Source: Halosolutus halophilus
GTDB taxonomy: Archaea > Halobacteriota > Halobacteria > Halobacteriales > Natrialbaceae
Reading direction: 5' to 3'
NCBI RefSeq assembly: GCF_022869805.1
Contig: NZ_CP094974.1
Span: 1,860,001 to 1,924,000, forward strand
Length of the DNA: 64,000 nucleotides
The notes under the pieces are model-generated. The model was not told the origin of the DNA, searched no databases, and saw nothing but the letters and a program-made list of their open reading frames with translations. The position numbers and the translations under genes were made by a program. Shown one piece after another: positions 22,806 through 64,000 of the stretch; position 1 is the stretch's first letter; each line of letters starts with the position of its first letter.

Positions 22806-22844
22806 ACGCTAACGTGTGCGGACCACTTCCTGTCTATTCAAAAT

Positions 22845-22865
22845 TCCTATAAGTATTCTTATATG
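22845..22865 (-). promoter_or_regulatory. AT-rich promoter of the three-gene operon
   Basis: Read on the minus strand the segment contains CATATAAG and CTTATAGG, partly palindromic, about 41-60 bp upstream of the ATG at 22805. It is the only AT-rich stretch before the operon and a good TATA candidate. Confidence 0.5.
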
Positions 22866-22894
22866 TTTGGGCTGACACGGCTGCAGCGGCGCCG

Positions 22895-23173
22895 TTACCC
22901 GCCGGGTCGTCTGAACGTGTAGGTCACGTCGTCGACGTCGATCGTGAGCGCTCCCGTGTCGTGGTCCACCACGAGGTCGACCGCCCCGTCCTGCTCGAAG
23001 TCGTGGAGCGGCATCCCCGTGCTGACGCGTCCGTTCCGCGTCACCTCGACGCGTGCGGATCCGAAGTCGATCAGAATCCGATCGTCTCCGGCGGTCACGT
23101 CCCCGGTCTCGCCGAACCGGCGCAGTTCGTCGCTGACCGTTTCCCAGTCGGTGATCTGGATGCGTTTTGCCAT
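22895..23173 (-). CDS. Small conserved-looking haloarchaeal protein (92 aa)
   Basis: 92 residues: MAKRIQITDWETVSDELRRF, then alternating beta-strand-like segments (RILIDFGSARVEVTRNGRVS, AVDLVVDHDTGALTIDVDDV) ending TYTFRRPGG. It has the composition of a genuine haloarchaeal cytoplasmic protein, predicted as a small all-beta fold. No family was recognised. It lies upstream of the PEP-hydrolase operon in the same direction, but the promoter in between suggests separate transcription. Confidence 0.7.
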   Translation of the reverse strand: MAKRIQITDWETVSDELRRFGETGDVTAGDDRILIDFGSARVEVTRNGRVSTGMPLHDFEQDGAVDLVVDHDTGALTIDVDDVTYTFRRPGG

Positions 23174-23230
23174 ACGTCGGTATACGGCCGCCGAGTACTA
23201 CTATCGTAGCCACTGAACGTCGGAGCATAC

Positions 23231-23257
23231 CCGATCGCACGGCGGCTGTGCGATCGG
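23231..23257. repeat. Hairpin with arms shared with 20245-20271
   Basis: CCGATCGCAC (23231-23240) and GTGCGATCGG (23248-23257) are perfect inverted arms with a 7-nt loop, lying upstream of the 92-residue gene. Nine of the ten arm bases match the hairpin downstream of the Tm-1-like operon. Confidence 0.55.
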
Positions 23258-23498
23258 CGCGGAAACAGTTTCAGTTGTTACGATAGCGCCTGGACGAGCC
23301 GGCGTCGTTCTTCCCCGTCGACGATCGGGACCGGATGGATTCACCGGAACAACTGGCCGACGCTCGTTATATCCACGTTCGGACGAACCAACCTCGCAGT
23401 AGGTAGTAACACGACTTTTTCATTCAGACTGTGGCGGAACTCGCGGTCAGTACGGGCCGAGCAGTTACCGATCTCGCCAGTAGCTGTCAAGAATCACG

Positions 23499-23570
23499 CG
23501 CTGAATACAGAGCATCAATGCAGCACGACGACTCCGTTTGTTTCATACCGAAATCAGTGAACTATCTGCT
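23499..23570 (+). repeat. Dispersed repeat copy 1 (variant)
   Basis: It begins CGCTGAATACAGAGC, has AGCACGAC at about 23522-23529, then a CGTTTGTTTCAT block. The same two blocks recur at 24383-24460. The flanking 23258-23582 holds no gene that I can support. Confidence 0.6.
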
Positions 23571-23582
23571 CACGACACGTGC

Positions 23583-23816
23583 TTACTGGAACGAATTATA
23601 GAAATCTGCATTTTCCTCATCTTGAAGAACCATATTTGTATGAGTTTTATAGATTGGAATCTTTTGATCCGCAATTGCAATCTCTCTTTCAATTAATTTC
23701 CGTGAGTTCTTTTCAAATTTGATTCTCTGCACCTCACTTGGTCCACTGTCAGCGATTGTTGAACGACTTTTTTGTTGATCAATACGGGACAAGCTACCTG
23801 CTACTGCAATGCGCAT
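23583..23816 (-). CDS. Doubtful small ORF (77 aa)
   Basis: An AT-rich frame from the ATG at 23816, with a lysine-rich, less acidic product (KFEKNSRKLIEREIAIADQK). Composition is unlike the core genome and could reflect transferred DNA or a remnant. It abuts the uspA start on the opposite strand. No family was recognised, and it may not be a gene. Confidence 0.3.
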   Translation of the reverse strand: MRIAVAGSLSRIDQQKSRSTIADSGPSEVQRIKFEKNSRKLIEREIAIADQKIPIYKTHTNMVLQDEENADFYNSFQ

Positions 23817-23846
23817 CGCTTTCGAATCCGTTCCACAATGGGGCCT

Positions 23847-24260
23847 ATGGTTCGACACGTACTCGTTCCAGTTGAGGACTCTGAGTCCTCATACAATGCA
23901 CTTGAGTACGCAGTCTCAGAATACCCTGATGCCCAGATAACAGCGCTCGAAGTCTCTGATCCGATAGATCTACTCAAAAGTGATCAGGTAGACAATATAT
24001 TCGAAAGTTCTGATCAACATGAGAAAGACCTCCGTCTACAACGCGTCAGAAACAGAGCAATTGAGCAGGGAACTCACTTATCAGGAGATCGCACCACTGG
24101 TGAGGTGATCGGCGAAATTCTAAACTACGCAGCAGAGCATGATGTGGATCATATTGTTGTAGGAGTGAGTGAACGTTCAGGGACACGTTGGTTTTTCTCG
24201 GAAAATATGACGGACAAACTTTCTCGAAAGGCGTCAATTCCAGTCACTATTATTCAATAG
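23847..24260 (+). CDS. Universal stress protein (UspA domain)
   Basis: 137 residues from the ATG at 23847 (MVRHVLVPVEDSESSYNALE). The fold signature includes the initial VLVPVEDSE and HDVDHIVVGVSERSGTRWFF, close to the ATP-binding G2xG9xGS loop, although the classical GSxS is not exact. It ends ASIPVTIIQ. The upstream ATG at 23838 is an alternative start. It has lower GC than the core, like the surrounding repeat-rich pocket. Confidence 0.88.
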   Translation: MVRHVLVPVEDSESSYNALEYAVSEYPDAQITALEVSDPIDLLKSDQVDNIFESSDQHEKDLRLQRVRNRAIEQGTHLSGDRTTGEVIGEILNYAAEHDVDHIVVGVSERSGTRWFFSENMTDKLSRKASIPVTIIQ

Positions 24261-24272
24261 CCTCAAGATTGC

Positions 24273-24347
24273 CTGTACTGACCGATCACCGTCTCTCGTA
24301 GATCGACCCTCACCTCACGCCACATTCGCGCTCTGTATCTCTCACGC
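24273..24347 (-). repeat. Dispersed repeat copy 2 (full length, reverse)
   Basis: It begins CTGTACTGACCGATCACC and ends with GCCACATTCGCGCTCTGTAT. It is the reverse complement of the copy at 58473-58546, with both ends clearly matching and a more variable centre. Confidence 0.75.
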
Positions 24348-24382
24348 TTCGTTCAACTTATCCTGTTCCCGTCAGAAAATGC

Positions 24383-24460
24383 GTGCAAGATACAGAGGAT
24401 GAGTTTAGCACGACAGCTTCGTTTGTTTCATCCCGAAGTCAATGAATCAGCTGTGCAGTG
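24383..24460 (+). repeat. Dispersed repeat copy 3 (variant like copy 1)
   Basis: GTGCAAGATACAGAGGATG followed by TTAGCACGAC, then CGTTTGTTTCATCCCGAAG. It matches copy 1 over both blocks, including the CGTTTGTTTCAT segment not present in the full-length type. Confidence 0.6.
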
Positions 24461-24497
24461 GATATGCGAACCTACTACAGAGTAGCAGAGTCCTCGG

Positions 24498-24902
24498 TTA
24501 GCCTTGTTCACCACTAATGAACCGGTACGTCACCGCAAGGGAGGCGGGGAGAACAAGTGCCGCCGCCAACAGCCAAGCCCATATTGGGATGAGCGGACCA
24601 CCTGTCATCTCTACAAGTCCGCCGACTACACCAACAATCGTCAGACCAAAGATTGTAGTGGCTGTGACCATCGCCGGTCGAAGATTTCCCGTCCGGTAGG
24701 AGTAGATACCCGTGACGGCCACCGCCAGACCGAGCACTGCCGCAATGACTTGCATGAGGCGAACCGCGAAAGTGATAGGCCCGCCGTCCCCGGGCGAGGG
24801 AATAAGGAGAAATGGGGCGATAGCAACCAGAATCCCCATAACGACCACGGGAAGGGCGCGATGGTCACCCGTTGACAGGAACCGTTTTACATGACGCTCC
24901 AT
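24498..24902 (-). CDS. Small hypothetical membrane protein
   Basis: 134 residues with four hydrophobic helices (about 17-34, 44-67, 79-98 and 107-127) and a polar N-terminus MERHVKRFLSTGDHRALP. The spacing is even and the loops are short. No family was recognised. Repeat copies flank it on both sides. Confidence 0.7.
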   Translation of the reverse strand: MERHVKRFLSTGDHRALPVVVMGILVAIAPFLLIPSPGDGGPITFAVRLMQVIAAVLGLAVAVTGIYSYRTGNLRPAMVTATTIFGLTIVGVVGGLVEMTGGPLIPIWAWLLAAALVLPASLAVTYRFISGEQG

Positions 24903-24960
24903 ATGTGATTCAACTATGATTCTCGGTAAATGTCTTGTCCCCTTCCATTAAATGGACACT

Positions 24961-25031
24961 CTGTACTGAGCGATCACCACCGTCGCAAATCGAGCCATAT
25001 CTCGTGCTGCATTCGCGCTGTGTATTCATCA
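24961..25031 (-). repeat. Dispersed repeat copy 4 (full length, reverse)
   Basis: It begins CTGTACTGAGCGATCACC and ends GCATTCGCGCTGTGTATTCA, matching the reverse complement of 58473-58546 at both ends. Confidence 0.75.
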
Positions 25032-25148
25032 CGACGCCTAAAACCTATCACCGACCGAGGATTTCAAGGTAGCTTGCGCCATATCATGATAGACGCCGAG
25101 CGTATACAACGGGCTAATAATGTCTGAATTGTACATCCCTATCAACTG

Positions 25149-25622
25149 ATGACAGATGCGGTCATCCGGGGAGCGACCGTGGCTGATGCCGAAGCACTCG
25201 CGGCGGTGTACCGGAGTGCGTATTCAGAAAACCAGCGATTAGGCTTCCCGACGAAAGCTGCATCCGCAACGTCGGAAACGGTAGAAGAATGGGTTGAGGA
25301 CAGCAGGCTATTCGTTGCCCAATTGCACGACGAGATCGTCGGAGGAGTTCGCTTGGAGGTCACCAACGATGATAGAGTAAAACTCAGTCGACTCGCGGTA
25401 CACGAGGAGTGGAAGGGTGAAGGAATCGGCAGTGAACTGTTAGACCATGCAGAAACGGAAGTCCGGGAGTGGGGTCACTCAACAGTCTGGCTAACGACGC
25501 CGGAAGAGCATCCGTATCTACCTGATCTCTATCGAAACCGTGGGTACGAGAAGACTGCACCATATCCACTCGAGTATCGAGAGTACGACGAAATCGTGAT
25601 GGAAAAACGAGTTCGATATTGA
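25149..25622 (+). CDS. GNAT family N-acetyltransferase
   Basis: 157 residues. A GNAT fold: VIRGATVADAEALAAVY at the start, then VKLSRLAVHEEWKGEGIGSE (about 77-96), where the motif A acetyl-CoA loop appears as EWKGEGIGSELL, and a C-terminal LYRNRGYEKT typical of motif B. The substrate is unknown. It has lower GC than the core and lies at the edge of the repeat-rich pocket. Confidence 0.9.
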   Translation: MTDAVIRGATVADAEALAAVYRSAYSENQRLGFPTKAASATSETVEEWVEDSRLFVAQLHDEIVGGVRLEVTNDDRVKLSRLAVHEEWKGEGIGSELLDHAETEVREWGHSTVWLTTPEEHPYLPDLYRNRGYEKTAPYPLEYREYDEIVMEKRVRY

Positions 25623-25841
25623 ACAATCTTGCTACTTCTTCGCAAAGCGTTGACGGTCATTGATACTTGTTACAGACGCGCTAGATGTTCAGCACGGCGT
25701 ACTGAAAATCATCTGAACCCGATACAAACTTCGGCGCTCAGTTCGCAGTCGGACTTCCCGGATCGAGCGGCGCAGTTTCAGTCACTGTTCTGAATAGCGA
25801 AATCGTGTTCCCGACTACTGCCAGGATCGCGACCACCGTCG

Positions 25842-26831
25842 CTATTCTGGTGCCGGATCACTCTCGCCGATCTGCGCACCGTCGATCGCTGCGCGTGCGA
25901 GGAACACGTCCCCGTCGAGTCCCCGATCGGCGAGGGCATCTCTCGCCGCGCCGGCGGCTTCGTCGGCGTGTGCCGCGTCGGTGACGCCGTAGACGACCGG
26001 CCCCCACGAGGACTGGCCGACGCCGGTCAGGACGGGACAGGCATCGAGGGCCTCGACGAGTTCGCCCGCGGGCGGCCGGAAGACGCCGCCCTGGGCGTCG
26101 GCGTACCACGCGCCGTTCTTGCGACCGATCTCGGCGATCGCCTCGCCGAACGCCTCGAGGCGGCCCTCGGCGGCGGCCGGGAGCAGTGTCCGGGTGACGA
26201 CGCCAGCGATCTCGTCGGCGATCGCGGGATCGGCGCGCTCGACGACGGCTCGCATGCTCGCGTCTTCCGACTCGCCGCTGCGGCCCGGATCGGCGTCGGG
26301 GACGACGACGAGGAACCGCCACTCGAGGGGGAGTTCGTGGCGGGAAACGACCGGTGGAACCGTCCAGTCCCCCTCTGCGGGCGGTTCCGTCGTGAATCGG
26401 TTCGTCGGGTGGCCGGCGTCGACGACGAAGCCGCCGCCCTCGAACGTCGCGACGCCGACGCCGCTGCGGCCGCCGCGGCCCATCGCCGGTGCGCGCTCGC
26501 GGATCCGGGGCTCGCGACCGTGGGCCCGTCCCGTCGCCGCGAGGACCGACAGGGCGAGCTGAGTACCGCTTCCCAGACCCACGTGGCGGGGCAGGCGCTC
26601 CTCGATCCCGATCGCGACGCCGGGGACGTCCAGAACGTCCACGGCTCGCCGGGCGTACTCTCGAACGAGAGGGTCGTCGGTCCGGACGCCGGACGCGGGT
26701 TCGGCGGTGACGGTCACCCGCGGCTCCGCGAGACCGACACCGATCCCGCCGTAGAGACGCTCGCGAGCGAGCGAAAGGTTCTGGAACCCGACGTGGAGGC
26801 GCGCTCCCGCGCTCACCGTGACCGTCCCCAT
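25842..26831 (-). CDS. Beta-RFAP synthase-like GHMP family protein
   Basis: 329 residues from the ATG at 26831 (MGTVTVSAGARLHVGFQNLS). GARLHVGF and the GHMP glycine loop LPRHVGLGSGTQLALSVLAA (about 84-103) match beta-ribofuranosylaminobenzene-5'-phosphate synthase, as do AMGRGGRSGVGVATFEGGGF and GVGQSSWGPVVYG. In methanogens the enzyme starts the tetrahydromethanopterin pathway from p-aminobenzoate and PRPP; its haloarchaeal role, probably a related pterin cofactor, is unproven. It is divergent from the COG0523 GTPase. Confidence 0.85.
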   Translation of the reverse strand: MGTVTVSAGARLHVGFQNLSLARERLYGGIGVGLAEPRVTVTAEPASGVRTDDPLVREYARRAVDVLDVPGVAIGIEERLPRHVGLGSGTQLALSVLAATGRAHGREPRIRERAPAMGRGGRSGVGVATFEGGGFVVDAGHPTNRFTTEPPAEGDWTVPPVVSRHELPLEWRFLVVVPDADPGRSGESEDASMRAVVERADPAIADEIAGVVTRTLLPAAAEGRLEAFGEAIAEIGRKNGAWYADAQGGVFRPPAGELVEALDACPVLTGVGQSSWGPVVYGVTDAAHADEAAGAARDALADRGLDGDVFLARAAIDGAQIGESDPAPE

Positions 26832-43069: not shown

Positions 43070-43312
43070 ATGTTCGAACGCGTAACACACGCGCTGAACC
43101 GGGCCCGCTACGCAGCGACCGGTGCGGCGATCGGGGCCTTCGTCGGAGGATTGATCAGTCGAAACGGCGCGAGCACGGGTGCGGCGATCGGCGCTCTCGT
43201 CGGCGCGACGATCGGCGAGAAGCGAAGCGACGTCGACGCCGCCGTCGAGCGACTCGGTGATCTGAACGAAACGGGCCTGCGCTCCGGTTCGAAGTCGGAC
43301 GCGCAGGATTGA
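43070..43312 (+). CDS. Small glycine-zipper membrane protein (80 aa)
   Basis: 80 residues with a glycine-zipper helical hairpin (about 17-49): TGAAIGAFVGGLI, then TGAAIGALVGATIGEKRSD. The repeat of Gly and Ala every three to four residues allows tight helix packing in a membrane. It has no recognised family. Confidence 0.7.
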   Translation: MFERVTHALNRARYAATGAAIGAFVGGLISRNGASTGAAIGALVGATIGEKRSDVDAAVERLGDLNETGLRSGSKSDAQD

Positions 43313-43620
43313 ATCGTACTCGCCGTCCCGCCGTTTTCGTCGCCGACTCGAATCCGAACCGTCAAATTCAGGAGTCGACTGGCGGGGACCATGGAGGTTC
43401 TTGTCCGACTGGTCGCGCTCCTCGTCGTGCCGTTGCTCGGAACGGGGCTGAGGCGACAGCGTCCGTACCTGCTCCTTTCCGATCGCCAAAGTCTCGCTTC
43501 CCGCCGATCGATATTGGTCACGTCCGACTGCCGACTGTCGACTGCCGTCGAACAAGTTAGCGAGGTATACGTATTATATTACAGTAGTTTTAAATGACGT
43601 AACAAGAAATGGAGTCGTGT
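43313..43620 (+). promoter_or_regulatory. Gene-free spacer with promoter of the 918-aa protein
   Basis: No gene is supported in this 308-bp spacer. AT-rich elements TATTATATT (43572-43580) and TTTTAAAT (43588-43595) precede the ATG at 43621. The second lies about 26-33 bp before it, which fits a leaderless transcript starting at that ATG and supports 43621 over the ATG at 43609. Confidence 0.55.
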
Positions 43621-46377
43621 ATGCAACGACGCGAAGTGCTCCTCGGAAGCGGTACCGTCGCCGCCGTGTCCCTCCTCGGCTACGCCAACGCAGCGTCGAC
43701 CGACGATACCGCTGCCGACGAGGACGGAGGTGGGACGGCAGCGCCGTCCGACCTCGACACCGTCCTCGAACTGGTCCCCGCGGAATCAGCCCTCGACGCG
43801 AGTTATCAGCGACTCCACTACGCCTCGGTCGAGGAGGTGGACGAAAACGAACTCGACCACGAGACCCGGCGCGTCCTGGACGATCTGGATGCGATCGAGT
43901 CGGACTCGGTATCCACGGTCAGTTCGGTACACGGCGAGAACGGGACACTCAGTATCAGTGCCATGACCGGGTCGTTCGACCGACCCGAGGCTGGCGACGC
44001 CACGGGCGAGGACGGCGACTGGCGAATCGCCGAACTTGACGACGGCGACGCGATCGCGGCCACGGACGATCGACTGGTGGTCGTCACCGCAGAGGACCCC
44101 ACCGGGATCGCCGAGACGGCCGCCGAGGTCGCCCGCGGCGATACCGAGTCTGTCCTGAAGAGCCCCGAAAACACCGAACCGACGTTCGAACGGCTCGAGT
44201 CCTCGGAGTACGTGATTTTCCTTCCGAACCTGGAGGACTTCGACCACCTCGAGTTCGGCGACGACGTCGAGTCGATCGGGGTCGGCTTCGAGCAGCCGCG
44301 GACGCGTACGGCGTCCTCGGGGACGAGAGAAACCGAGTTCGTCCTCGGGCTCGCCCCGGACGCCGACGTCGACGACGACTGGATCGTAGAGCGCCTCGAA
44401 CGGGTCGAACCGGGCGAGTTCGTCGAGACGTCGATCGATCGAACCGACGGCTTCGTCCACGTCGAGGCCGTCGTCGACCTGCCGCCTGAGCGGGACCGTG
44501 ACGCCGCACCCGACGCGCGGGTTCGCGCCCACCCAGTGGCCGACGAGGGTATCGTGACGTTCGAACACCTCGATGGCGAGTCGATCGACACCGACGAACT
44601 CGAGGTGTGGCTCGACGGCGAACTCGCGGACGCGCAACTCGCCGACGAGTACGACGCCTTCGTGGAGGGAGATACCTTCGAACTCGAGACGGGGCCGATC
44701 GCCGACGTCGGACTGCGCTGGTTCGACGAGGCCGAGGACGTCTACTACTACTACGATACGGCCCTCGTCGGCGGCGACTCGTTCGAGGTGAGCTACGACG
44801 GCGACGACACGGTCGAGATCACCTACGTCGGCGACCGCGACGTCGATCCGGATCGTCTCAGGCTGGTTCACCGGACTAACGACGGTTCGTCCGCCCCCGA
44901 ACGGACGGGGATCGACGACGTGTCGGGATCGCTCACGGCCGGCGAGACGATCACGGTCGAAGACGTCACGCTCGGCGATCGCGTCTCCCTCCAGCTGGCG
45001 GCACCGGCCAACCCGAACCGCGGACAGCGGCCGCTCGCTCGCTACCACGTTCGACCGCCCCGACTGCACCTCCGCAGTCGCGGCGAGGGCGTCGTCGCGC
45101 GATACTACGATCGCCAGGACCGCGCCGCCGAGGAGTTCCGCGTGCTGGTCGAAGACGACCCGGGCGACGTCCAGTTCGCCGACGTCACAGACACCCTCTC
45201 GGAGGGCGACGAGATCGAACTCGGTGACTTCCCACACGGCACCAGCGTCGCCGTGGAGTGGCTCGAACCGGACGATCCCGTCGTCGTCGCGGAGACCGTC
45301 GTGCGCCCCTCCGCCCACATCCAACTCGCCTACGACGACGCCGAAGGGACGGTCACCGCCGAGCACGTGGACGGCGACCCGATCGCAGCCGACGACCTCG
45401 AACTCCGGTTCGACGGCCAGCCGGCCGACGACCAGCCAGCCGACGAGTACGAGACGTTCGAACCGGGCGACGAACTCGCGTCCGACGTGCAGCCGTTCAC
45501 GTCGATCGAACTCGTCTGGGACGGTGGCGAGGACGTCGAGCACGGTCTCGGTCGCGCCATCGCCGGTCGGGAGTCGATCGAGGCCAGCTACGATCCCGAC
45601 GCGGCCGAGGTCGAACTCGTTTACACGGGCGAACAGCCCGCAGACCCGGACGGACTCGTGATCGACCACGACCACGAGGCCCGGTCGGGCGACGGCGACG
45701 CCCTGTTCGCAGCCGAATACGAGACCCTGTCCCAGGGCGACGGGATCGTCGTCGAAGACGTCGCTCCCGAGGACCGGATCACCGTCATGCTTGTCCAGGA
45801 CGGGGAGAACCACGTCTCTCATCGGTCGATCTTCCACTTCACCCCCGAGCCGAGATGGGCCTTCTCCTTCGACGAGCGGGAGAACGGCCTCGTCGCCATC
45901 TATCGCGAGCGGACCGATCGTGACGCCGACCACTTCGAAATCCTCGTCGACGGCGACGACGCCGACGTGCAGCCGTCGGATCGACACGAGACGCTGTCGA
46001 TGGGCGACGAGATCGTCCTCGGCGAGTTCGATGCCGGTACCGAACTCACCATCGAGTGGACCGTCCCCGACGAGCCACGGGAAGTGACCGACCACGTCGT
46101 CCTCCCCGACGCCGAGTTCGACTTCGACCACCGGCCGGACGACGGAACGGTCGTGGTCGAACACGCTGGCGGCGACGAAATCGCTGCCGAGAATCTGGGC
46201 GTGGTCGTCGAACCGACCCGGTCCGAACCGACTGGCTGGGACGACCACGAGACGGTCACGGAGGGCGATCGCACGACGGTCACCATCGAGGAGACCGAAC
46301 GCGGTCGCGGGGCGACGGTCGTTGCCGTCGTGTTCCAAGAGCACAGAGCGATCGCCCACGAACGAATCGACGACTGA
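43621..46377 (+). CDS. Large secreted protein made of repeated beta domains
   Basis: 918 residues from the ATG at 43621 (MQRREVLLGSGTVAAVSLLG), a twin-arginine signal with AlaAsnAla near the cleavage site. Residues about 40-290 form a unique N-terminal part. After about residue 298 there are seven beta-rich domains of about 85-95 residues. Domains 1, 4 and 7 share TVT/EH-type text with DGD.IAADDLE; 2 matches 5 and 3 matches 6, so the real unit is three domains (about 266 residues). Domain 4 contains VDGDPIAADDLELRFDG and domain 7 contains HAGGDEIAAENLGVVVE, the latter like C-terminal domains of haloarchaeal pilin-type proteins (tentative). It is probably a surface or adhesive protein. Confidence 0.78.
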   Translation: MQRREVLLGSGTVAAVSLLGYANAASTDDTAADEDGGGTAAPSDLDTVLELVPAESALDASYQRLHYASVEEVDENELDHETRRVLDDLDAIESDSVSTVSSVHGENGTLSISAMTGSFDRPEAGDATGEDGDWRIAELDDGDAIAATDDRLVVVTAEDPTGIAETAAEVARGDTESVLKSPENTEPTFERLESSEYVIFLPNLEDFDHLEFGDDVESIGVGFEQPRTRTASSGTRETEFVLGLAPDADVDDDWIVERLERVEPGEFVETSIDRTDGFVHVEAVVDLPPERDRDAAPDARVRAHPVADEGIVTFEHLDGESIDTDELEVWLDGELADAQLADEYDAFVEGDTFELETGPIADVGLRWFDEAEDVYYYYDTALVGGDSFEVSYDGDDTVEITYVGDRDVDPDRLRLVHRTNDGSSAPERTGIDDVSGSLTAGETITVEDVTLGDRVSLQLAAPANPNRGQRPLARYHVRPPRLHLRSRGEGVVARYYDRQDRAAEEFRVLVEDDPGDVQFADVTDTLSEGDEIELGDFPHGTSVAVEWLEPDDPVVVAETVVRPSAHIQLAYDDAEGTVTAEHVDGDPIAADDLELRFDGQPADDQPADEYETFEPGDELASDVQPFTSIELVWDGGEDVEHGLGRAIAGRESIEASYDPDAAEVELVYTGEQPADPDGLVIDHDHEARSGDGDALFAAEYETLSQGDGIVVEDVAPEDRITVMLVQDGENHVSHRSIFHFTPEPRWAFSFDERENGLVAIYRERTDRDADHFEILVDGDDADVQPSDRHETLSMGDEIVLGEFDAGTELTIEWTVPDEPREVTDHVVLPDAEFDFDHRPDDGTVVVEHAGGDEIAAENLGVVVEPTRSEPTGWDDHETVTEGDRTTVTIEETERGRGATVVAVVFQEHRAIAHERIDD

Positions 46378-55960: not shown

Positions 55961-56067
55961 TTGATTAACCTCAGACCGAAACGCAGCCTATACAGTTAAC
56001 GGTTAGCCTCTTTGCACCGAGTCGCAAACAGGGCGAATGTCTTCCAGCGTATGGGGGTACCTATCCA

Positions 56068-56367
56068 ATGACCGAAATGACTTCACGATCGCCGTCGGTA
56101 TCGACTGAGGAGCCGTACACCGTACAGTACGATCGACTCGACGACGAACCACTCAGCGTCGCCGTGGCTGACGCCGTCGCGGCGTTCTGTAACGACGACG
56201 TCACCGCGCTCGATCCGCTTCACTACTCGATCAACGCCGACGCACTCGAGCGCCTCTTCGAGCCGCGGGCGGACGGACTCCGATCCGGGGGGTCGGTGAC
56301 TTTCGAATACAACGATTGTCTGGTAACCGTCGATTCTGACGGCGAAATCAGAGTCGAATCCGCGTAA
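56068..56367 (+). CDS. HalOD1 output-domain protein
   Basis: 99 residues from the ATG at 56068. A single HalOD1 domain (about 20-98): VQYDRLDDEPLSVAVADAVA, then LDPLHYSINADALERLFEP and VTFEYNDCLVTVDSDGEIRV. HalOD1 is a haloarchaea-specific signalling output domain of unknown mechanism. It follows the large HTH_10 regulator by about 107 bp in the same direction, with a candidate TATA-like segment TATACAG at about 55990-55996. Confidence 0.85.
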   Translation: MTEMTSRSPSVSTEEPYTVQYDRLDDEPLSVAVADAVAAFCNDDVTALDPLHYSINADALERLFEPRADGLRSGGSVTFEYNDCLVTVDSDGEIRVESA

Positions 56368-56460
56368 CACGCGACTTCCGTTTCTGTTTCTCGATATTCG
56401 CGCGATAAACCAGTGGTGTATAAACACATTATATTGTAATTATCCACCACCCGGAATCTC

Positions 56461-56467
56461 TATATAG
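56461..56467 (+). promoter_or_regulatory. TATA box of the 35-aa ORF
   Basis: TATATAG sits 26-32 bp before the ATG at 56493, the spacing of a leaderless haloarchaeal promoter. Confidence 0.5.
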
Positions 56468-56492
56468 GGTGCTCATGTACGAGACGTAATCC

Positions 56493-56600
56493 ATGCCTGA
56501 ACAACACACGCAGACAATGAAAGACGTTAGCCACACCCCACCGGTCGGGAACTCCGTCACCAACGTGTGGTACCGCGGCCACGAATTCCACGACGAGTAA
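56493..56600 (+). CDS. Possible micro-protein (35 aa)
   Basis: A 35-residue frame: MPEQHTQTMKDVSHTPPVGN, then SVTNVWYRGHEFHDE. It is His-rich and ends acidic. A good TATA box at the right distance supports expression, but no relatives are known to me. Its end overlaps the open frame of the ATPase fragment on the other strand, though not the recognisable part of that fragment. Confidence 0.4.
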   Translation: MPEQHTQTMKDVSHTPPVGNSVTNVWYRGHEFHDE

Positions 56601-56802
56601 CTGCCCGAAGTCGGCTCACCGACGGTCGATCGACGGTTTTCTTCGTGAGGTGGGTCTTGCCAACGCCACTTGGGCCCGAGATGAGTGCATCCGTGTCGCG
56701 GGAGTCGGTCGTGAATCGTCGGAGAAGCTGCTCGATCTCGTCCTCTCGATGGAGCAGATTGGGTGTCGTGAGTCTTAAATTGTGAGAAGGAAGCGGATTA
56801 TT
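56557..56802 (-). pseudogene. Fragment of an AAA+ ATPase (Orc1/Cdc6-like)
   Basis: Minus-strand frame reading LHREDEIEQLLRRFTTD, then DALISGPSGVGKTHLTKK (Walker A). The layout of hReDEIE..L with a P-loop 27 residues on is that of Orc1/Cdc6 replication initiators and related mobile-element ATPases. There is no start codon (in-frame stops at 56803-56808) and the similarity ends straight after the P-loop, so only about 55 recognisable residues remain. It is evidence for a former gene, possibly a plasmid replication gene. Confidence 0.6.
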
Positions 56803-56828
56803 CTACTATCTCTGATGAACTTCGAGCC

Positions 56829-56866
56829 GTACTGAATACAAAGCGCATATTAGTTACGAGATCGGT
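56829..56866 (+). repeat. Dispersed repeat copy 5 (partial)
   Basis: GTACTGAATACAAAGCGC matches the left end of the repeat; the remainder is diverged. It lies between the ATPase fragment and the kinase-like pseudogene. Confidence 0.55.
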
Positions 56867-56970
56867 GTCGAACCACTACGTACAGCGAGGGTACGTAGTA
56901 CTGGGTCACACTCCGACGTTGGAGGAAGGGCTATGCGTGTCCGACGCGAACTTCCATCGGTTCTCATCGA

Positions 56971-57617
56971 ATGCCACAGCTAGCACGCACGATTGCCATC
57001 TTGGGCCGGATGGGAGCGGGAAAACCACCCAGGCAAAACTCCTTACAGAGCGCCTGCAAGCGACCGGCTACGACGCGCAGTACGTTCACGCGCTGTACTA
57101 TCTTTCTGATAACATCCCCTATGCAAACCGGCTCCGGAGACACCTCGGCCCACGGAAAACGCGTCCCCAAGAGCCGGAACATGGCTCACTCTACCTCGTT
57201 CGACGGGTACTGTTCGGGCTCGTTAGTTTTTGGTTCGCGCTGCTCACAATTGGGATGATTTCCGTCCAGGTTCGCAACAAGAGGCAAGTCGTGGTGTTTG
57301 ACCGGTACTACCACCAGTTCTTCTATGACGTGTACGGGTCGGCAAGTATCCCGCTTTCACATCTCCTTCCCCGACCGTGGCGGATGATTTACTTGGATGC
57401 TGACCTCACCACGGTCCAGACACGGATGGACACTGTTGATCAAGCGGTCGATGGGCAGTACTATGCCACCGTCATTGACATGTACGACGAATGTGCAACA
57501 CCTGGGTGGCTATCCTTCCGTGCAGAACTACCGATTGCAACGCTTCACGAGCAAATCTTCCAGGCAATCTGGGATCGATCGAGACCAGATCGTCTCACAA
57601 CAGCGGCGATCAGATAA
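56971..57617 (+). pseudogene. Thymidylate kinase-like gene, frameshifted in the P-loop
   Basis: The start ATG at 56971 gives MPQLARTIAIL, the natural N-terminus, but then runs on as GRMGAGKPP. One frame over, from about 57000, the sequence reads GPDGSGKTTQAKLLTERLQA and continues as a full nucleoside-monophosphate kinase-like protein of about 205 residues (QVVVFDRYYHQFFYDVYGSA, then RPWRMIYLDADLTTVQTRMD). A single missing base before TTGGG explains the break. An upstream ATG at 56865 in the second frame would give an unlikely 51-residue N-terminus. It is either a recent pseudogene or a sequencing error. Confidence 0.7.
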
Positions 57618-57632
57618 GACCAATTCTCTTCC

Positions 57633-57884
57633 GTGGGAAACTGTTGGTCGACGAGGGGAGAAAACGTCGGTATATTGCTTGACGAGATCGATAAAGACTA
57701 TACTGACATCCCAAAGGTCATGGCCTATGTTGTTAAACCACATGACCGTCTTGAAGACGTCATCTCTGTCTGGGACGAGTTTTTCGACTCCCCTTACCCC
57801 TGTCATACGTTAATCGGGGTCGACCAACTGGCTCTCGAAGGACTCCTCATCGAGATCGACGTAGAGGTCCCACTTGAAGAATAG
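57633..57884 (+). pseudogene. RidA (YjgF) C-terminal fragment
   Basis: The frame ENVGILLDEIDKDYTDIPKV, AYVVKPHDRLEDVISVWDEF and SPYPCHTLIGVDQLALEG, ending LLIEIDVEVPLEE, is the C-terminal two-thirds of a RidA-type enamine deaminase. The N-terminal strand and the first motif of the family are missing, and upstream DNA does not supply them in any frame. The listed GTG start at 57633 is arbitrary. Confidence 0.65.
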
Positions 57885-57928
57885 AACAAATCGGCCTGAT
57901 TGAACTAATTTCCTATATATTCAGTACC

Positions 57929-57966
57929 CGTACTGCATATAGAGCGCGGATTCATTGCAGTACTTC
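57929..57966 (+). repeat. Dispersed repeat copy 6 (partial)
   Basis: CGTACTGCATATAGAGCGCG resembles the left end of the repeat with two mismatches in the TGAATACA core. It sits between the RidA fragment and the GYD protein. Confidence 0.45.
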
Positions 57967-58098
57967 TCTCAATGGTCGGTGAAATCCGTCCTTGGTAACC
58001 ATTAACATACTGGGTCACGAATTGGGAGAGGCGTTCCTCATGTAGAGAGGTGGAATCGACGTGCGTGTTGTATGGAACGCGAACGGGAGCACACAACA

Positions 58099-58395
58099 AT
58101 GCCAACCTACATCGTCCTGTTCAAGAAAACCGAAGAAGGGCGGAAGATAACGGCTGAGGACGCACGGCAACGACGAGCGAAGGGGATAGAGATCAACGAA
58201 GAGTACGGGACGGAGATACGAGGTCTCTATTATGGACTCGGCGAATACGAGATGGTCGCGATTGTTGACGCGCCTGATAGTGAAACTGTGGCGAAAGTCC
58301 AACTCGCCTACGAGCGAGAGGGCCTCGCCCGCACAGAGGCGTTTGAGGTGTTCGAGCCAGACGAGTGGGACGCAATCCTCGAAGACGCACTCTAA
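58099..58395 (+). CDS. GYD-domain protein
   Basis: 98 residues from the ATG at 58099 (MPTYIVLFKKTEEGRKITAE). The frame carries YYGLGEYEMVAIVDAPDSET, the GYD family signature (G-x-Y-D or GEYE), and ends in TEAFEVFEPDEWDAILEDAL. GYD domains are small ferredoxin-like alpha-beta proteins of unknown function. The upstream ATG at 58072 is not preferred. Confidence 0.85.
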   Translation: MPTYIVLFKKTEEGRKITAEDARQRRAKGIEINEEYGTEIRGLYYGLGEYEMVAIVDAPDSETVAKVQLAYEREGLARTEAFEVFEPDEWDAILEDAL

Positions 58396-58423
58396 AGAGT
58401 AGCGGCCCTACTGACTATATCCT

Positions 58424-58546
58424 CCGTATTCAGCACGCTACTTGTGACAATGTTGGTAGAGATCACTGAACCGTTGCTGAATACACAGCGCGAATGTGGC
58501 ACGAGCTGAAGGTCAATCTGCGGAGGACGGTGATCGGTCAGTACAG
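58424..58546 (+). repeat. Dispersed repeat copy 7, full length with inverted partner
   Basis: The full 74-bp copy is 58473-58546, from GTTGCTGAATACACAGCGCG to GGTGATCGGTCAGTACAG. An inverted left-end fragment GTATTCAGCACGCT lies at 58426-58439, about 34 bp away. The same paired layout occurs at 60597-60655. This copy is the best reference for the family. Confidence 0.75.
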
Positions 58547-58637
58547 ATGATGTACTGGCCGAAGTTGGCGCTGAATATCACTATACAAACAGCTGACAGA
58601 AGCAGACTTATATGTTATCTCATCTAATTTTGGATAC

Positions 58638-58901
58638 ATGGTTCCCGATATTGAAACGGACGGTGGAACGACTGAGACAAATCGAGATGAACATGTGGGT
58701 GTGCCACAGAGTGCTGTCAGAAACGGGGTACTCGACGCTATCGGAACCATTGCCCTCCTTGGATTCTCTCTTTTAGCCCTCTTCATTGGTGTGAGAGGAT
58801 TCTTTGTCGATTCCTCAATGGCTATCAGCGGGACATTCATTGTTATCTCATGTCTGCTGGCCGCAGCAGCATTTAATCTCATCCCGCCATTCCGGAATTA
58901 G
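58638..58901 (+). CDS. Small membrane protein (87 aa)
   Basis: 87 residues with a polar N-terminus MVPDIETDGGTTETNRDEHV and two hydrophobic helices (about 34-55 and 61-81: AIGTIALLGFSLLALFIGV; MAISGTFIVISCLLAAAAF). It has no recognised family. GC content is low, as in the surrounding island. Confidence 0.65.
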   Translation: MVPDIETDGGTTETNRDEHVGVPQSAVRNGVLDAIGTIALLGFSLLALFIGVRGFFVDSSMAISGTFIVISCLLAAAAFNLIPPFRN

Positions 58902-59032
58902 TCCATGACGTTACAATAGAATTCAGTGATATTCCAAGCGGTCAGTTCGCATATCTATGTAACAACTGCTTCAGACAAAATTATATCTGGAGAATCAGAT
59001 TCCAACAGAGCCAAATTAGACGATTTTTCTGG

Positions 59033-60256
59033 CTATTCGGTGGTAGTGTCGCCGACACCATCCTCAGTCCCACTCCCAGATCTGACTGTGTCTAGTTCCT
59101 CGATCCGCCGCGTCGCCGACGGGATCATCAGCAACCGTCCGAACGGGCCTCGAGACGGTGGCTCGACGTCCGCTTCGAGCAACCATTCAAGCGCCTCTCG
59201 AACGTGCTTCGGTGACGTCGTATCGGCAGCGATTCGGTCGGCTTCGAACACTAACCGACGCCCGATCGTGAGTCGCCCAATAATAAAACCTGTTGTGACC
59301 GCTACGAGCACTACGAATTGTCCGACTGAAGATCCATATGGAAGCACGCCAACGGCGATTGCGGGTATTCCAAGGGTTAACGCGGTGACAATCGCCAGCA
59401 GCGTGGTCACGTCAAACTCGCGAACGTGTCGCTGTTCCATGCCCGCGAGCACTGCTAGGAGAGCACGATATGTCTCTTTGGACGCCTCTTCGTGTAATTT
59501 TCCGGTCACGAACAACCAACGATAGCTGGGCGGGCCGCGAACGGAGGCAGCGTGATAATTGAACGGAACTCGTGGATTGAGTTTGTACGCTGCTCGGGGA
59601 ACGAGTTCGATTCGGTTGACGGATAGACCGACGTTTTCGACGACGTCGCCGAGACGAGTAGATCCGTCCATTGGCACCGACCGTTCCGTGAGGCGGTACC
59701 AGAGTGGAGTGCCGGCGTACCAACAGACGCCATACAGTACGAGCAGCACGAGACCAGCCGCGAACTGTGCGCCATACGGCGAAAGAACGCCAGTGAGAGA
59801 CGACGAAAGAACGACGGTAGTGAGCGCGGAAAGTACGAACAATCCGCTCAAAACCGTTGCGACTCGAACGACATATTCAACTGCATTTCGTCGAGAAACG
59901 TCTGGATCCATTCCCGCAGACGTATAGGGGAATACACCAAGATACGCGCCAACGATCGGGACGATCGCGCCAGCGAGTGTTGGCAACCATGCGAGAAACT
60001 CAGCACCGGGATACGCTCCAACACCGACGACCGAAAGCACACGGCGGGTATCTTCTAGACTTCCAGTTCCAAGCAAACTTGCTATCGTTATCACCCACGC
60101 GATAACGGCGCCCGTGACAAACGACGCGAGAAGAATACGGTTCGTCTCCTGTGACGAGTCATTCACACGAGTAACGTATCGGGCCCACACTCGGAACGTA
60201 ACGAATTCCAGGAGGGTTATCCCGAACAGAGTGACAAATGGTTCAATCATAGTCAA
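59033..60256 (-). CDS. M48-fold membrane protein with altered HExxH
   Basis: 407 residues. Four helices (about 5-25, 40-65, 80-105 and 130-190) precede an M48-like stretch: WLFVTGKLHEEASKETYRAL then LAVLAGMEQRHVREFD, where the zinc motif HExxH is replaced by MEQRH. The third-ligand region VFEADRIAADTTSPKHVREA keeps its Glu. Two further helices lie between. It is likely a former HtpX/M48-type peptidase that is inactive or altered. It has lower GC than the core. Confidence 0.7.
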   Translation of the reverse strand: MTMIEPFVTLFGITLLEFVTFRVWARYVTRVNDSSQETNRILLASFVTGAVIAWVITIASLLGTGSLEDTRRVLSVVGVGAYPGAEFLAWLPTLAGAIVPIVGAYLGVFPYTSAGMDPDVSRRNAVEYVVRVATVLSGLFVLSALTTVVLSSSLTGVLSPYGAQFAAGLVLLVLYGVCWYAGTPLWYRLTERSVPMDGSTRLGDVVENVGLSVNRIELVPRAAYKLNPRVPFNYHAASVRGPPSYRWLFVTGKLHEEASKETYRALLAVLAGMEQRHVREFDVTTLLAIVTALTLGIPAIAVGVLPYGSSVGQFVVLVAVTTGFIIGRLTIGRRLVFEADRIAADTTSPKHVREALEWLLEADVEPPSRGPFGRLLMIPSATRRIEELDTVRSGSGTEDGVGDTTTE

Positions 60257-60284
60257 TCAGTTATCACATATCTGTAGCAGATGG

Positions 60285-60452
60285 TTATAAGCTGGATGAG
60301 AGCGCTGAACCGACGACAATTGTTCCGATAAGCAGGAAGATGATACTGAGACAGAATCCATTCGCGTTTTGTGGGGGGATAGAGAAAACCAGCATCCAGA
60401 TGTCGATCAATGTCGTTTGAACTCCGAGCAAAGCCTGTTTTATTACAGTCAT
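60285..60452 (-). CDS. Possible small membrane protein (55 aa)
   Basis: From the ATG at 60452: MTVIKQALLGVQTTLIDIWM, then LVFSIPPQNANGFCLSIIFL and LIGTIVVGSALSSSL, two membrane helices around a polar turn. It looks like a real two-helix protein, although the longer frames reaching 60548 and 60591 are not trusted. It lies on the same strand as the M48-like gene, 29 bp upstream of it. Confidence 0.5.
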   Translation of the reverse strand: MTVIKQALLGVQTTLIDIWMLVFSIPPQNANGFCLSIIFLLIGTIVVGSALSSSL

Positions 60453-60596
60453 ATATCGGTGTGGAAGCGAATGTGTTAAAAGTTTGTTTATCATACTCCG
60501 CAGACGTATATTGGCAATATTCGCAAGTATACTGAGCGGATGGTTCACCGATTTCAGAGTGAAACAAACGAGGCTGCCCTGCTGAGCTCATGCTCT

Positions 60597-60663
60597 GTAT
60601 TCAGCACGCTGTTCTTGACAGCACTTCGGTAGTTCGATCAGGTCTTGCTGAATACAGGGCGCA
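60597..60663 (+). repeat. Dispersed repeat copy 8, interrupted by the IS
   Basis: Inverted left end GTATTCAGCAC (60597-60607) and TTGCTGAATAC (60645-60655), followed by AGGGCGCA (60656-60663). The continuation AAATCGGC appears after the IS at 61607, so one repeat copy was split by the insertion. Confidence 0.65.
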
Positions 60664-61598
60664 GGCCGTGTTTAGACGCTAGTAATATTGCCTCTATGTC
60701 GGGAATTCTAGGAAATGAAGCGAGCACAGGTGGATGTGCACTCCAAACTGGCCCGCTTCACCGAACGATGCGTCGAATTGTCTCAAAAAGCTGTCGGAAG
60801 CGGTTCGAAAGAACCTCTCAGCAAAGGAAAGGGTGGCTACGCTGATTGGGTGATCGTAGCGATCCATGGTCTTCGGGAATACCTCGATCACTCCTACCGA
60901 CGGTTGCTAGACGTTCTTCGAGAAATGCCAGCTATTGTCGCCAAACTCGGCCTTTCACCGGATGAGTTGCCGGACTTCACCACCGTTTGTGTTCGAAAAC
61001 AGGATCTCAAGATGCCCGTCTGGCGGATGCTGCTGCAGCTGTCGGCGGAACTATTCGATACCGGAGAGGTACAAGCAATCGACTCAACCAGCATCGCTCA
61101 TCGCTCGTCCAGCCACAACTACGCAAAGCGCGTCAAAGGAACGTTTGAGTCGGTTAAAACCACTATTCTCGTAGACTGTTCTACGCGAGCTATTCTCGAC
61201 GTACACTGCTCAATGAACCTACCACATGACACGCAGATTGCGTGGCAAGTCCTGAAAAGAAACCTCAGCAACGTGGAAACCGTCGTCGCCGACAAAGGGT
61301 TTGATTGGGATGAACTCCGGCAGATGCTGCGAAACGAGGGAATTAGACCGGTGATCAAGCATCGTGAGTTCTACTCGCTCGATGCCACACACAATGCTCG
61401 GATTGATGATGAAACCTACCATCAACGGTCTATCGCAGAATCGATGTTTTTCGCGTTACGCAAGCGATTCGGTTCAACACTTAAGGCAAGAACGTGGTTC
61501 GGACAGTTCCGCGAACTCGTCCTTAAGGCCGCCGTCAGAAACATCGAACAATCGCTCAGGGCCTAACTCAAATGATTTCGACCATCTAAACAAGACCC
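60664..61598 (+). mobile_element. IS5-like insertion sequence with 8-bp target duplication
   Basis: About 935 bp. The left end reads GGCCGTGTTTAGA and the right end, on the minus strand, GGGTCTTGTTTAGA, so the terminal inverted repeats share GG..C.TGTTTAGA with mismatches. The flanks carry an identical 8-bp AGGGCGCA directly on each side (60656-60663 and 61599-61606). An 8-bp duplication fits the ISH1 group of the IS5 family. One transposase gene (60715-61566) fills it, and it looks intact. Confidence 0.85.
60715..61566 (+). CDS. IS5-family DDE transposase
   Basis: 283 residues. The DDE residues are in EVQAIDSTSIAHRSSS (D), VETVVADKGFDWDELRQM (D) and HQRSIAESMFFALRKRFGST (E). It has the usual IS5 pattern with YxxR[S]xxE in the last motif (YHQRSIAE). 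No frameshift or stop interrupts it, so the element may still be active. GC is lower than the host core. Confidence 0.92.
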   Translation: MKRAQVDVHSKLARFTERCVELSQKAVGSGSKEPLSKGKGGYADWVIVAIHGLREYLDHSYRRLLDVLREMPAIVAKLGLSPDELPDFTTVCVRKQDLKMPVWRMLLQLSAELFDTGEVQAIDSTSIAHRSSSHNYAKRVKGTFESVKTTILVDCSTRAILDVHCSMNLPHDTQIAWQVLKRNLSNVETVVADKGFDWDELRQMLRNEGIRPVIKHREFYSLDATHNARIDDETYHQRSIAESMFFALRKRFGSTLKARTWFGQFRELVLKAAVRNIEQSLRA

Positions 61599-61606
61599 AG
61601 GGCGCA
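61599..61606. repeat. Right copy of the IS target duplication
   Basis: AGGGCGCA, identical to 60656-60663. Joining the two flanks gives an uninterrupted repeat copy reading TGCTGAATACAGGGCGCAAA. Confidence 0.8.
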
Positions 61607-61761
61607 AATCGGCTACCAGCTTTTACTCGTCTGGAAATCAGAACGATACATTCAAGGCATGTATTCAATAAATCAGCAGTCGGGTCAGCCCTCATTCTGC
61701 ATGTGTCGAGTCTATTGAAGGACTCAAGAAGGTTATTAGCGAAGTTCTACGAACACGAACT

Positions 61762-61974
61762 ATGACCCAAAATGTATCCGGTGAAGACACCTCAGATACG
61801 AGTCGAAAGCGAGCGACTCTGCTATTTCTCGTAGGAGTTCCCCTTCTTGTGTATGGGAGCGCTCAATGGTTTGGATATGCCCCTTCGCCACCGTGGTTCG
61901 TTTACGCCCTAGCCGGCGTTGGTCTGTTTGTCTGGGGAGTCCATCAGTTCCAGTACGAGCAGAAACAGCGCTAA
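61762..61974 (+). CDS. Small membrane protein (70 aa)
   Basis: 70 residues with a polar N-terminus MTQNVSGEDTSDTSRKRATL, then two helices (LLFLVGVPLLVYGSAQWFGY; WFVYALAGVGLFVWGVHQF) and a basic end. No family was recognised. It lies right of the IS, in the same orientation. Confidence 0.6.
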   Translation: MTQNVSGEDTSDTSRKRATLLFLVGVPLLVYGSAQWFGYAPSPPWFVYALAGVGLFVWGVHQFQYEQKQR

Positions 61975-62099
61975 TTGCTGGATGTTGGGTGCAGTTCCGT
62001 GACCACTATTGGCTGGAAATTGACAGACTCGGCGTGATGGATGTATCCTCTGAGTCGGTCACCCCGCTCCTGACAGAAGCCGAGTAGTTGGAACAACCT

Positions 62100-62170
62100 G
62101 TGCTGAACTCAACGCGCGAATGTGGCACGATTGAGGATTTCAATAGAGCTAAAATGCCTGTATTGACTGC
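62100..62170 (+). repeat. Dispersed repeat copy 9
   Basis: GTGCTGAACTCAACGCGCGA, ATGTGGCACGA in the left half and CTGTATTGACTG at the right end, a diverged full-length copy. It lies in the 61975-62247 spacer, which holds no supported gene. Confidence 0.6.
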
Positions 62171-62247
62171 TGCTCCACGATTACCTGTCCAACTTTTCTC
62201 CACTTCTCGGACACACAGAATCCACGCTAAGTACAGATGCGTATCAG

Positions 62248-63429
62248 TCAGCGAAGCAGTGAGAGTCCCGAGGAGGATCCCTCCCGGATCACGAACCCTT
62301 CCTTGACCGGGACGACCCCATCGATCGTCCCGAGGTGGTGCTCCGCACGCGACCAGGTGGTTCGCTCCTCGCCTGTCGATCGGTCGTAGACGCTGACCCC
62401 GTCGTTTGTCCGACCGAACGCGACCCAGTCGTCGCCGACCACCGGACGGCCGGTGACGATGCCGGTATCGACGGCCCAGCGGATCTCGCCCGTGGTCGCG
62501 TCGAGAGCCACGCTCGTGGTCCCAGTACCGGCGGGAACGAATACCTCGTCTCCAGCCACCGCAAGTCCGGAGTCGACTTTGCTGACACCAGAAAGCGAGC
62601 GGGACCAGTACACCTCTCCGGTTCTGGCGTCGATAGCAGAGGCTGTCCCACGGTAGTCGGCGACCCAGACCATTCCGTTGAGGACTGAGGCGGACCCAAC
62701 GAACTCACCCGAGATGCGCCAGCGCTCCTCGCCGTTCAGGTCGTACGCAAAGATACCGCTGATCTGTGAGTCACTTCGAGTCGTGTAGACGCCATCGTCG
62801 TCAAGGGCCAGCGTCCCGCCGGCACCCTCGAGCCACTGGACCGTTCCGGTACGGATGTCGACGGCGGCGGGACTGAATCCAGCGACGTAGATGGTGTCGT
62901 CGAGAGCCGCGGCAGTGGCATCGTTGCGGTGGTGACTTACGGCGTCAGCTCGCCAGTACCGTTCGCCCGATGCACGGTCAAGGGCGGCCAGTTGGTTCAT
63001 TCCTGGGGCGAAGACGGCCCCGCAGGCGAGCACCGGTACGGCAGTGATGCCGTTGTCGAGGTCGCGATCCCAGATCGGCCCGTTCATCGGCGCGTCGAGG
63101 TCAACCGCGACGAGTCCACCGGTCACGGGGATATACGCTGTTCCATCCGCGACCACAGGGAGAGTCGAGGCATGTTGCTGCTGACCATCGTCACGGGCGG
63201 CGGCGAGCAGGTCCACAGCGGCGGCGTCGGGTGCTGGCGGAGCGGTGTCAGCCCGACCGGTGCGTCCGGGATCACCACCGGCGGTCGGCCACGTTCCAGT
63301 TGGATTGTCACAAGGGTCTTCGATCGGGGTATAGCCCACAAGTTCGCGGCGAATCCGACCGACACAGCCGGCCGTTCCGACGGAGGCAGCAGTACCGATA
63401 GCCGACAGGAGGGCTCTCCGTGAGGGCAT
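62248..63429 (-). CDS. PQQ-type beta-propeller Tat lipoprotein
   Basis: 393 residues. The signal MPSRRALLSAIGTAASVGTA has twin Arg and a lipobox Cys (AGCVG, near 22). The mature part has repeated blades of the PQQ-like type: LVAVDLDAPMNGPIWDRDL, AALDRASGERYWRADAV, AVDIRTGTVQWLEGAGG, AYDLNGEERWRISGEF, AIDARTGEVYWSRSLSG, ALDATTGEIRWAVDTG and VYDRSTGEERTTWSRAE. It is a cell-surface propeller, probably a protein scaffold or carrier, without obvious PQQ ligands. GC is back to core level here, marking the end of the low-GC island. Confidence 0.88.
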   Translation of the reverse strand: MPSRRALLSAIGTAASVGTAGCVGRIRRELVGYTPIEDPCDNPTGTWPTAGGDPGRTGRADTAPPAPDAAAVDLLAAARDDGQQQHASTLPVVADGTAYIPVTGGLVAVDLDAPMNGPIWDRDLDNGITAVPVLACGAVFAPGMNQLAALDRASGERYWRADAVSHHRNDATAAALDDTIYVAGFSPAAVDIRTGTVQWLEGAGGTLALDDDGVYTTRSDSQISGIFAYDLNGEERWRISGEFVGSASVLNGMVWVADYRGTASAIDARTGEVYWSRSLSGVSKVDSGLAVAGDEVFVPAGTGTTSVALDATTGEIRWAVDTGIVTGRPVVGDDWVAFGRTNDGVSVYDRSTGEERTTWSRAEHHLGTIDGVVPVKEGFVIREGSSSGLSLLR

Positions 63430-63625
63430 CGAATTACGGTGTCCTCGACAGCAAAAAGAACCTTCCGAACGAGCGTAACGTCGGGTTGAATATAGGCGAT
63501 GAGAGTGTCAGAGAAGTCTCCTTACGGTGGTGATTACACTCACGTCTATGGTGAATGGGCCGACAAGTTGGTACACGAACCTAACATAGCGGCTTCTATC
63601 AACTTCCGATAATGTTGTTAAAGTA

Positions 63626-63698
63626 GTGCTGAATACGGAGCGCGAATGTAGCACGTCACAGTGACGAGATCAGGGATAGCTCGATTTGCTCAGTACAG
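63626..63698 (+). repeat. Dispersed repeat copy 10 (full length)
   Basis: GTGCTGAATACGGAGCGCGA, ATGTAGCACG at left and TTGCTCAGTACAG at right, 73 bp. It lies in the 63430-63727 spacer between the PQQ-type lipoprotein and the partial membrane protein, where no gene is seen. Confidence 0.75.
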
Positions 63699-63727
63699 AA
63701 CAGTAGCGGACTGGTCAACACGAGAAA

Positions 63728-64000
63728 TCAGGACTGTCGATCACTGTATTCCGACTGCTCGGTAGTTGCTTGTTCAGCTGGGAATATCTCTGTGTCAGGT
63801 GCGTTGAATGGACTGTCTGGTCCAGTAAGCCACGCAGAGAGGTAGACAACACAGGCGGCGATGACAGCCATCGGCAGCTGGACGGTAAAAACACCATAGA
63901 CAACCGTAACAGCGATCGTAGCCCGAGTGAGCGTATGACGTTCGGCATTGCCGTAGTACACCAGTGCCGCGACAACGAACGCTGAAAGCGTGAACCTCGC
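63728..64000 (-). CDS. Membrane protein, cut by the window end
   Basis: The minus-strand frame stays open to the last base: ARFTLSAFVVAALVYYGNAE, then RATIAVTVVYGVFTVQLPMA and VIAACVVYLSAWLTG, ending in a polar tail TEQSEYSDRQS. At least two or three helices are visible, and the N-terminus lies beyond 64000. A GTG at 63961 is inside the continuing frame and is not taken as the start. Confidence 0.6.
   Translation of the reverse strand, partial: ARFTLSAFVVAALVYYGNAERHTLTRATIAVTVVYGVFTVQLPMAVIAACVVYLSAWLTGPDSPFNAPDTEIFPAEQATTEQSEYSDRQS

Follow-up and report, generated by a model that had tools for sequence, protein, structure and literature searches.

Archaeal type IV pilins, such as that of the Haloferax volcanii pilus (8fj5), are small subunits with a single beta head (Pfam Pilin_N, PF07790) and are packed mainly by an N-terminal helix. 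Tandem beta-sandwich beads are found in the Ig/Fn3 arrays of fibronectin and titin, and titin too carries super-repeats. TP0453 of Treponema pallidum (3k8g-3k8j) is a membrane-associated lipoprotein, and proteins of its kind are characterized by insertion into membranes through amphipathic helices. The S-layer glycoprotein of haloarchaea has Ig-like domains (PMC8640222), and haloarchaeal Tat lipoproteins offer a further system for comparison (PMC2945643). In the window, a 64,000-nt stretch of the Halosolutus halophilus genome, we analyzed a gene whose product (P0001) shares features with all of these. As an array of beta domains the protein is ordinary in kind, but it is unusual in its parts and history. 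A literature search on its family found nothing. The parts of the locus are as follows.

43391..43464, +: 5' remnant of a transporter-like gene (76-bp match to the intact gene of same-genus genome G002, 82.9%, E 1e-15; synteny)
43621-46377, +: P0001 gene, an open frame of 918 residues
43621..43692, +: Tat-type signal peptide MQRREVLLGSGTVAAVSLLGYANA (orthologue alignment; Tyr21 in place of the lipobox Cys)
43693..43746, +: low-confidence acidic linker, residues 25-42 (pLDDT <50 for residues 1-42; no alignment column <0.6 bits)
43747..44478, +: N-terminal alpha/beta domain, residues 43-286, with a TP0453-like fold (AlphaFold2 and fold search)
44479..44514, +: linker LPPERDRDAAPD between the N domain and domain 1 (constant length of 12; mean entropy 0.54 bits)
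44515..44772, +: domain 1, type A, cassette I (profiles, structure prediction, Pilin_N)
44773..45054, +: domain 2, type B, cassette I (profiles, structure prediction)
45055..45300, +: domain 3, type C, cassette I (profiles, structure prediction)
45301..45564, +: domain 4, type A, cassette II (structure matched best to that of the H. volcanii pilin)
45565..45846, +: domain 5, type B, cassette II (profiles, structure prediction)
45847..46098, +: domain 6, type C, cassette II (profiles, structure prediction)
46099..46377, +: domain 7, type E, C-terminal cap, with the stop codon (Pilin_N match; 8fj5 profile match)

There is a second in-frame ATG at 43609; orthologue starts align with 43621. A TATA-like element, TTTTAAAT, lies about 30 bases upstream of the ATG at 43621, a position that would be compatible with a leaderless transcript.

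Comparing the protein with itself, we found the strongest diagonal at +266, with a total BLOSUM62 score of 302 (mean 0.85 per pair, residues 297-918); the maximum in shuffled controls was 9 in 500 shuffles and 7 in 500 block shuffles. The diagonal at +532 ranked second. In-register identity was 40% between domains 1 and 4, 37% between 2 and 5, and 45% between 3 and 6, versus 18-33% for the remaining pairs. In a domain-versus-domain comparison of profiles built from 22 orthologues, the same three pairs gave E values of 7e-24, 3e-26 and 3e-32, respectively; domain 7 matched domains 1 and 4 at 1e-12 to 9e-14, other pairs mostly fell between 1e-7 and 3e-14, and 3-7 and 6-7 were weakest (about 1e-3). 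These results bear out the 266-residue super-repeat proposed in a first-pass annotation, which had named self-alignment as a check. The domain starts given there (44512, 45310 and 46111, i.e. residues 298, 564 and 831) lie within about 2 residues of predicted first strands. That annotation had also grouped domains 1, 4 and 7; the 1-4 pair stands, whereas domain 7 pairs with the two only distantly (29-32% identity). The repeat is old, because the third codon positions of cassettes I and II agree at only 45% in an ungapped comparison. Direct DNA repeats within the gene are short and for the most part out of register.

AlphaFold2, run with 22 orthologues, predicted seven high-confidence beta domains and one alpha/beta domain rather than a single non-repetitive fold (mean pLDDT 82.5; the pTM of 0.50 means confident domains but low confidence in how they are placed relative to each other). 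The junctions between domains are short, vary little in length and in several cases contain a conserved proline. In the family alignment, LPPERDRDAAPD is the best-conserved stretch of the protein (0.54 bits, versus 1.2-1.8 elsewhere), conservation among the folded parts is lowest in the N domain, and domain 7, at the free end of the array, is among the less conserved domains.

All seven beta domains share one fold, that of the beta head of archaeal type IV pilins. The likeness to pilins had been assigned to domains 1, 4 and 7; it holds for these but was drawn too narrowly, since domains 2, 3, 5 and 6 have the same fold, and the three domain types are not unrelated folds. The closest PDB structure is 8fj5_A (Z 11.3, rmsd 2.4 over 90 residues, model positions 560-650), and 8fj5 was also matched by sequence profile (E 3.4e-8, profile positions 829-904). 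Pfam Pilin_N matches were found in 22/22 orthologues. In P0001 they lie in mid-protein and begin at model positions 32-38 of 78, whereas four true Pilin_N pilins encoded in the same genome match from position 1. The seven beads are thus pilin heads without the stem. As the Pilin_N match positions show, the protein has neither a class III signal peptide nor a hydrophobic N-terminal helix; it carries a Tat signal instead. We therefore rejected P0001 as a true pilin. With seven heads in a chain of 918 residues, it also differs from the small single-head subunits of PF07790. In Foldseek searches at the level of the array, the model resembled Fn3/Ig chains, single domains giving only middling Z scores. 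Among 22 members, Pfam detected no Fn3 family and one weak bacterial-Ig match (Big_8, E 0.018, in a single member). By sequence the domains resemble pilin heads, and we read the model's likeness to Fn3/Ig arrays as probably one of shared shape.

The N-terminal part had been called unique. Predicted alone (AlphaFold2 pLDDT 87.3, pTM 0.84), it has a fold relative in TP0453 (3k8g; Z 12.1, 203 residues, rmsd 4.5), the next fold being RseB at Z 6.6. Foldseek also matched the domain to TP0453 (E 1.4e-8, TM about 0.5), and part-matches weaker than TP0453 were obtained with RseB/MucB and LprG. The likeness lies in the fold and is not shown by sequence: identity is about 13% (10-14% in structure alignments), and profile A3 searched against PDB sequences gave no TP0453 match. 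Unlike TP0453, the protein is without the lipobox Cys and bears a beta-domain array. To our knowledge, a TP0453-like domain has not been reported in archaea. Judged by the modelled fold, a place at the membrane surface, or a role in sensing it, is most likely for the N domain. A profile match to beta-ketothiolase (E 0.001) was set aside, there being no thiolase among the fold-search matches listed; an NCBIfam match to SseB (E 0.047, 12.8 bits against a cut-off of 295) was regarded as chance.

Full-length seven-domain orthologues (36-58% identity) are present in Natrialba, Natrinema, Halobiforma, Halopiger, Natronococcus, Halovivax, Natrarchaeobius, Salinarchaeum and many Halorubrum. At least about 25 of the 293 genomes of the order have a full-length copy, one of them split into two frames; this count is a lower bound, with three candidates scored per genome. 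Broken-looking copies were seen in L079 (G292:C1:1277540-1280427, family f5), a seven-domain gene split in two frames, and in L084 (G290:C42), where 199 C-terminal residues are left, in a genome from the same family as the window.

By domain profiles, relatives show four layouts: N-ABC-ABC-E, N-ABC-E (L009, L010, L085-L087 and a second group in Natrialbaceae), N-AB-CCC-E (L014, L090-L093) and N-E (L020, L099). A concatenated-cassette tree was built without the long-branched L078 and without L011, both of which disturbed the quick tree. Cassette I formed one group at 99/99 and cassette II one group at 88/69, for which the simplest reading is a single duplication before the seven-domain lineages split. 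The tree and the existence of unduplicated N-ABC-E relatives thus support the earlier proposal that a three-domain cassette was duplicated. A four-domain group, 4a, stood beside cassette I with weak support, and a tree with cassettes I and II as sisters was not rejected (AU p 0.38), so that N-ABC-E may be ancestral or a later loss. Copy number, proposed for comparison among strains, proved not to be a fast strain-level trait: seven domains are fixed across genera, although the entire gene may be present or absent. In the N-AB-CCC-E members, triplication of a single domain represents a second duplication mode of the family.

The signal peptide RREVLLGSGTVAAVSLLGYANA has a twin arginine and an uncharged h-region. 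The RR pair is conserved in nearly all family members with a known start, and Pfam TAT_signal matched only 2/22 members. The designation as a Tat protein therefore holds, with export itself being predicted. Many members share the lipobox with haloarchaeal Tat lipoproteins, the Cys being present in L035, L036, L041, L009, L085-L087 and others and in many four-domain relatives. In contrast, P0001 and its close relatives have Tyr in this column (Tyr21 in P0001), and Halorubrum members have Val or Phe. In alignment A2, residue 21 changes from Cys to Tyr, Ile, Val, Phe and others with the Tat signal retained, a pattern that suggests repeated loss (or gain) of lipid anchoring within one family. No C-terminal anchor was found in P0001 or most close relatives. 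Being without both anchors, these proteins may be released rather than held at the membrane; members without the lipobox Cys would be cut by signal peptidase I and may be free in the envelope.

In G002, of the same genus, gene order is alike, but P0001 is absent and the interval encodes instead a membrane protein of 302 residues, by sequence seemingly an auxin-efflux-carrier-type transporter. A similar transporter-like gene occupies the site in G001. The remnant of such a gene adjoins P0001 on its upstream side, and no second copy was found in the genome. From the remnant and the synteny with G002 and G001, it appears that this site has seen an exchange between P0001 and the transporter-like gene within the genus. 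The MutY gene adjoining P0001 is shared with Natrialba and Halobiforma, and the order MutY - gene - membrane protein - methylase occurs only in Natrialba, Halobiforma and Halopiger. Neighbourhood comparison found no functional operon or conserved gene partner for P0001. A small glycine-zipper-like frame (MFERVTHALNRARYAATGAAIGAFVGGLISRNGASTGAAIGALVGATIGEKR..., about 43071-43312, +) is kept in G002 beside MutY. Elsewhere in the window, G+C drops from about 66% to 50-60% at 22001-26000 and 56001-64000, segments that are possibly mobile or foreign DNA.

The explanation we favor, giving it an even chance of being right, is that P0001 is a Tat-exported envelope protein with its N domain at the membrane and its pilin-head array serving as a spacer or binding rod. 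Architecture, folds, the single old duplication, the Tat-type signal and the relatives were computed; from them we infer export, contact of the N domain with the membrane, the shape of a rod and whatever part the protein may have in binding or adhesion. The protein would be exported folded via Tat, and the N domain would then contact the membrane. The seven heads would project from it as a stiff spacer or a binding rod, into or through the space below the S-layer. A beta-sandwich bead measures about 3.5-4 nm, and the chain of seven, if extended, would reach about 25 nm. An ancestor N-A-B-C-E would have duplicated its A-B-C block once to give N-ABC-ABC-E before the present genera split, and the two blocks would have diverged afterwards in fixed register. 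Against this explanation stand the missing lipobox Cys and C-terminal anchor in the protein and most close relatives, the pTM of 0.50, a TP0453 likeness confined to the fold, and the lack of any conserved gene neighbour hinting at a process.

The missing lipid anchor, together with the standing of the protein as a lone exported one, would suit a diffusible partner of pili, whose heads bind or decorate type IV pili or block assembly by head-to-head contacts outside the filament core. The heads are real pilin heads and true pilins are encoded in the same genome; nevertheless we consider such a role quite unlikely, as the N-terminal helix is absent and pilus genes were not found near the gene. 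An adhesin or extracellular-matrix protein whose array mediates cell-surface or cell-cell attachment, in line with the surface or adhesive role suggested in the first-pass annotation, is also unlikely. Ig/Fn3-like domain arrays, which the model matches, are common in adhesins, and the gene is patchily present between sister species, but the protein has neither an anchor nor a ligand-binding motif that we could find, and the free end of its array, domain 7, is among the less conserved domains.

The N domain might instead bind lipid, so that the protein would handle lipids or glycolipids in the pseudo-periplasm and the array would be only a spacer to the S-layer. The TP0453 fold, the weaker part-matches to RseB/MucB and LprG, and the high conservation of the linker after the N domain point this way. 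Such a function nonetheless appears distinctly improbable, since the N domain is conserved less than any other folded part and a common fold is no proof of function.

Returning to the envelope rod, we put forward only tentatively, as somewhat doubtful, the wider idea that haloarchaea removed the pilin head from pili and made it into a non-pilus envelope rod through successive duplications of domains and cassettes (1, 4, 6 and 7 heads), mounted on a membrane-sensing TP0453-like domain, as a structural system of the pseudo-periplasm. The findings indicate that pilin heads serve as a modular building block outside pili, and that living species still hold relatives at several stages of domain duplication. 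They also provide annotation for a group of proteins registered in Pfam only through stray Pilin_N matches, and make P0001 a candidate component of the poorly known zone that separates the archaeal membrane from the S-layer.
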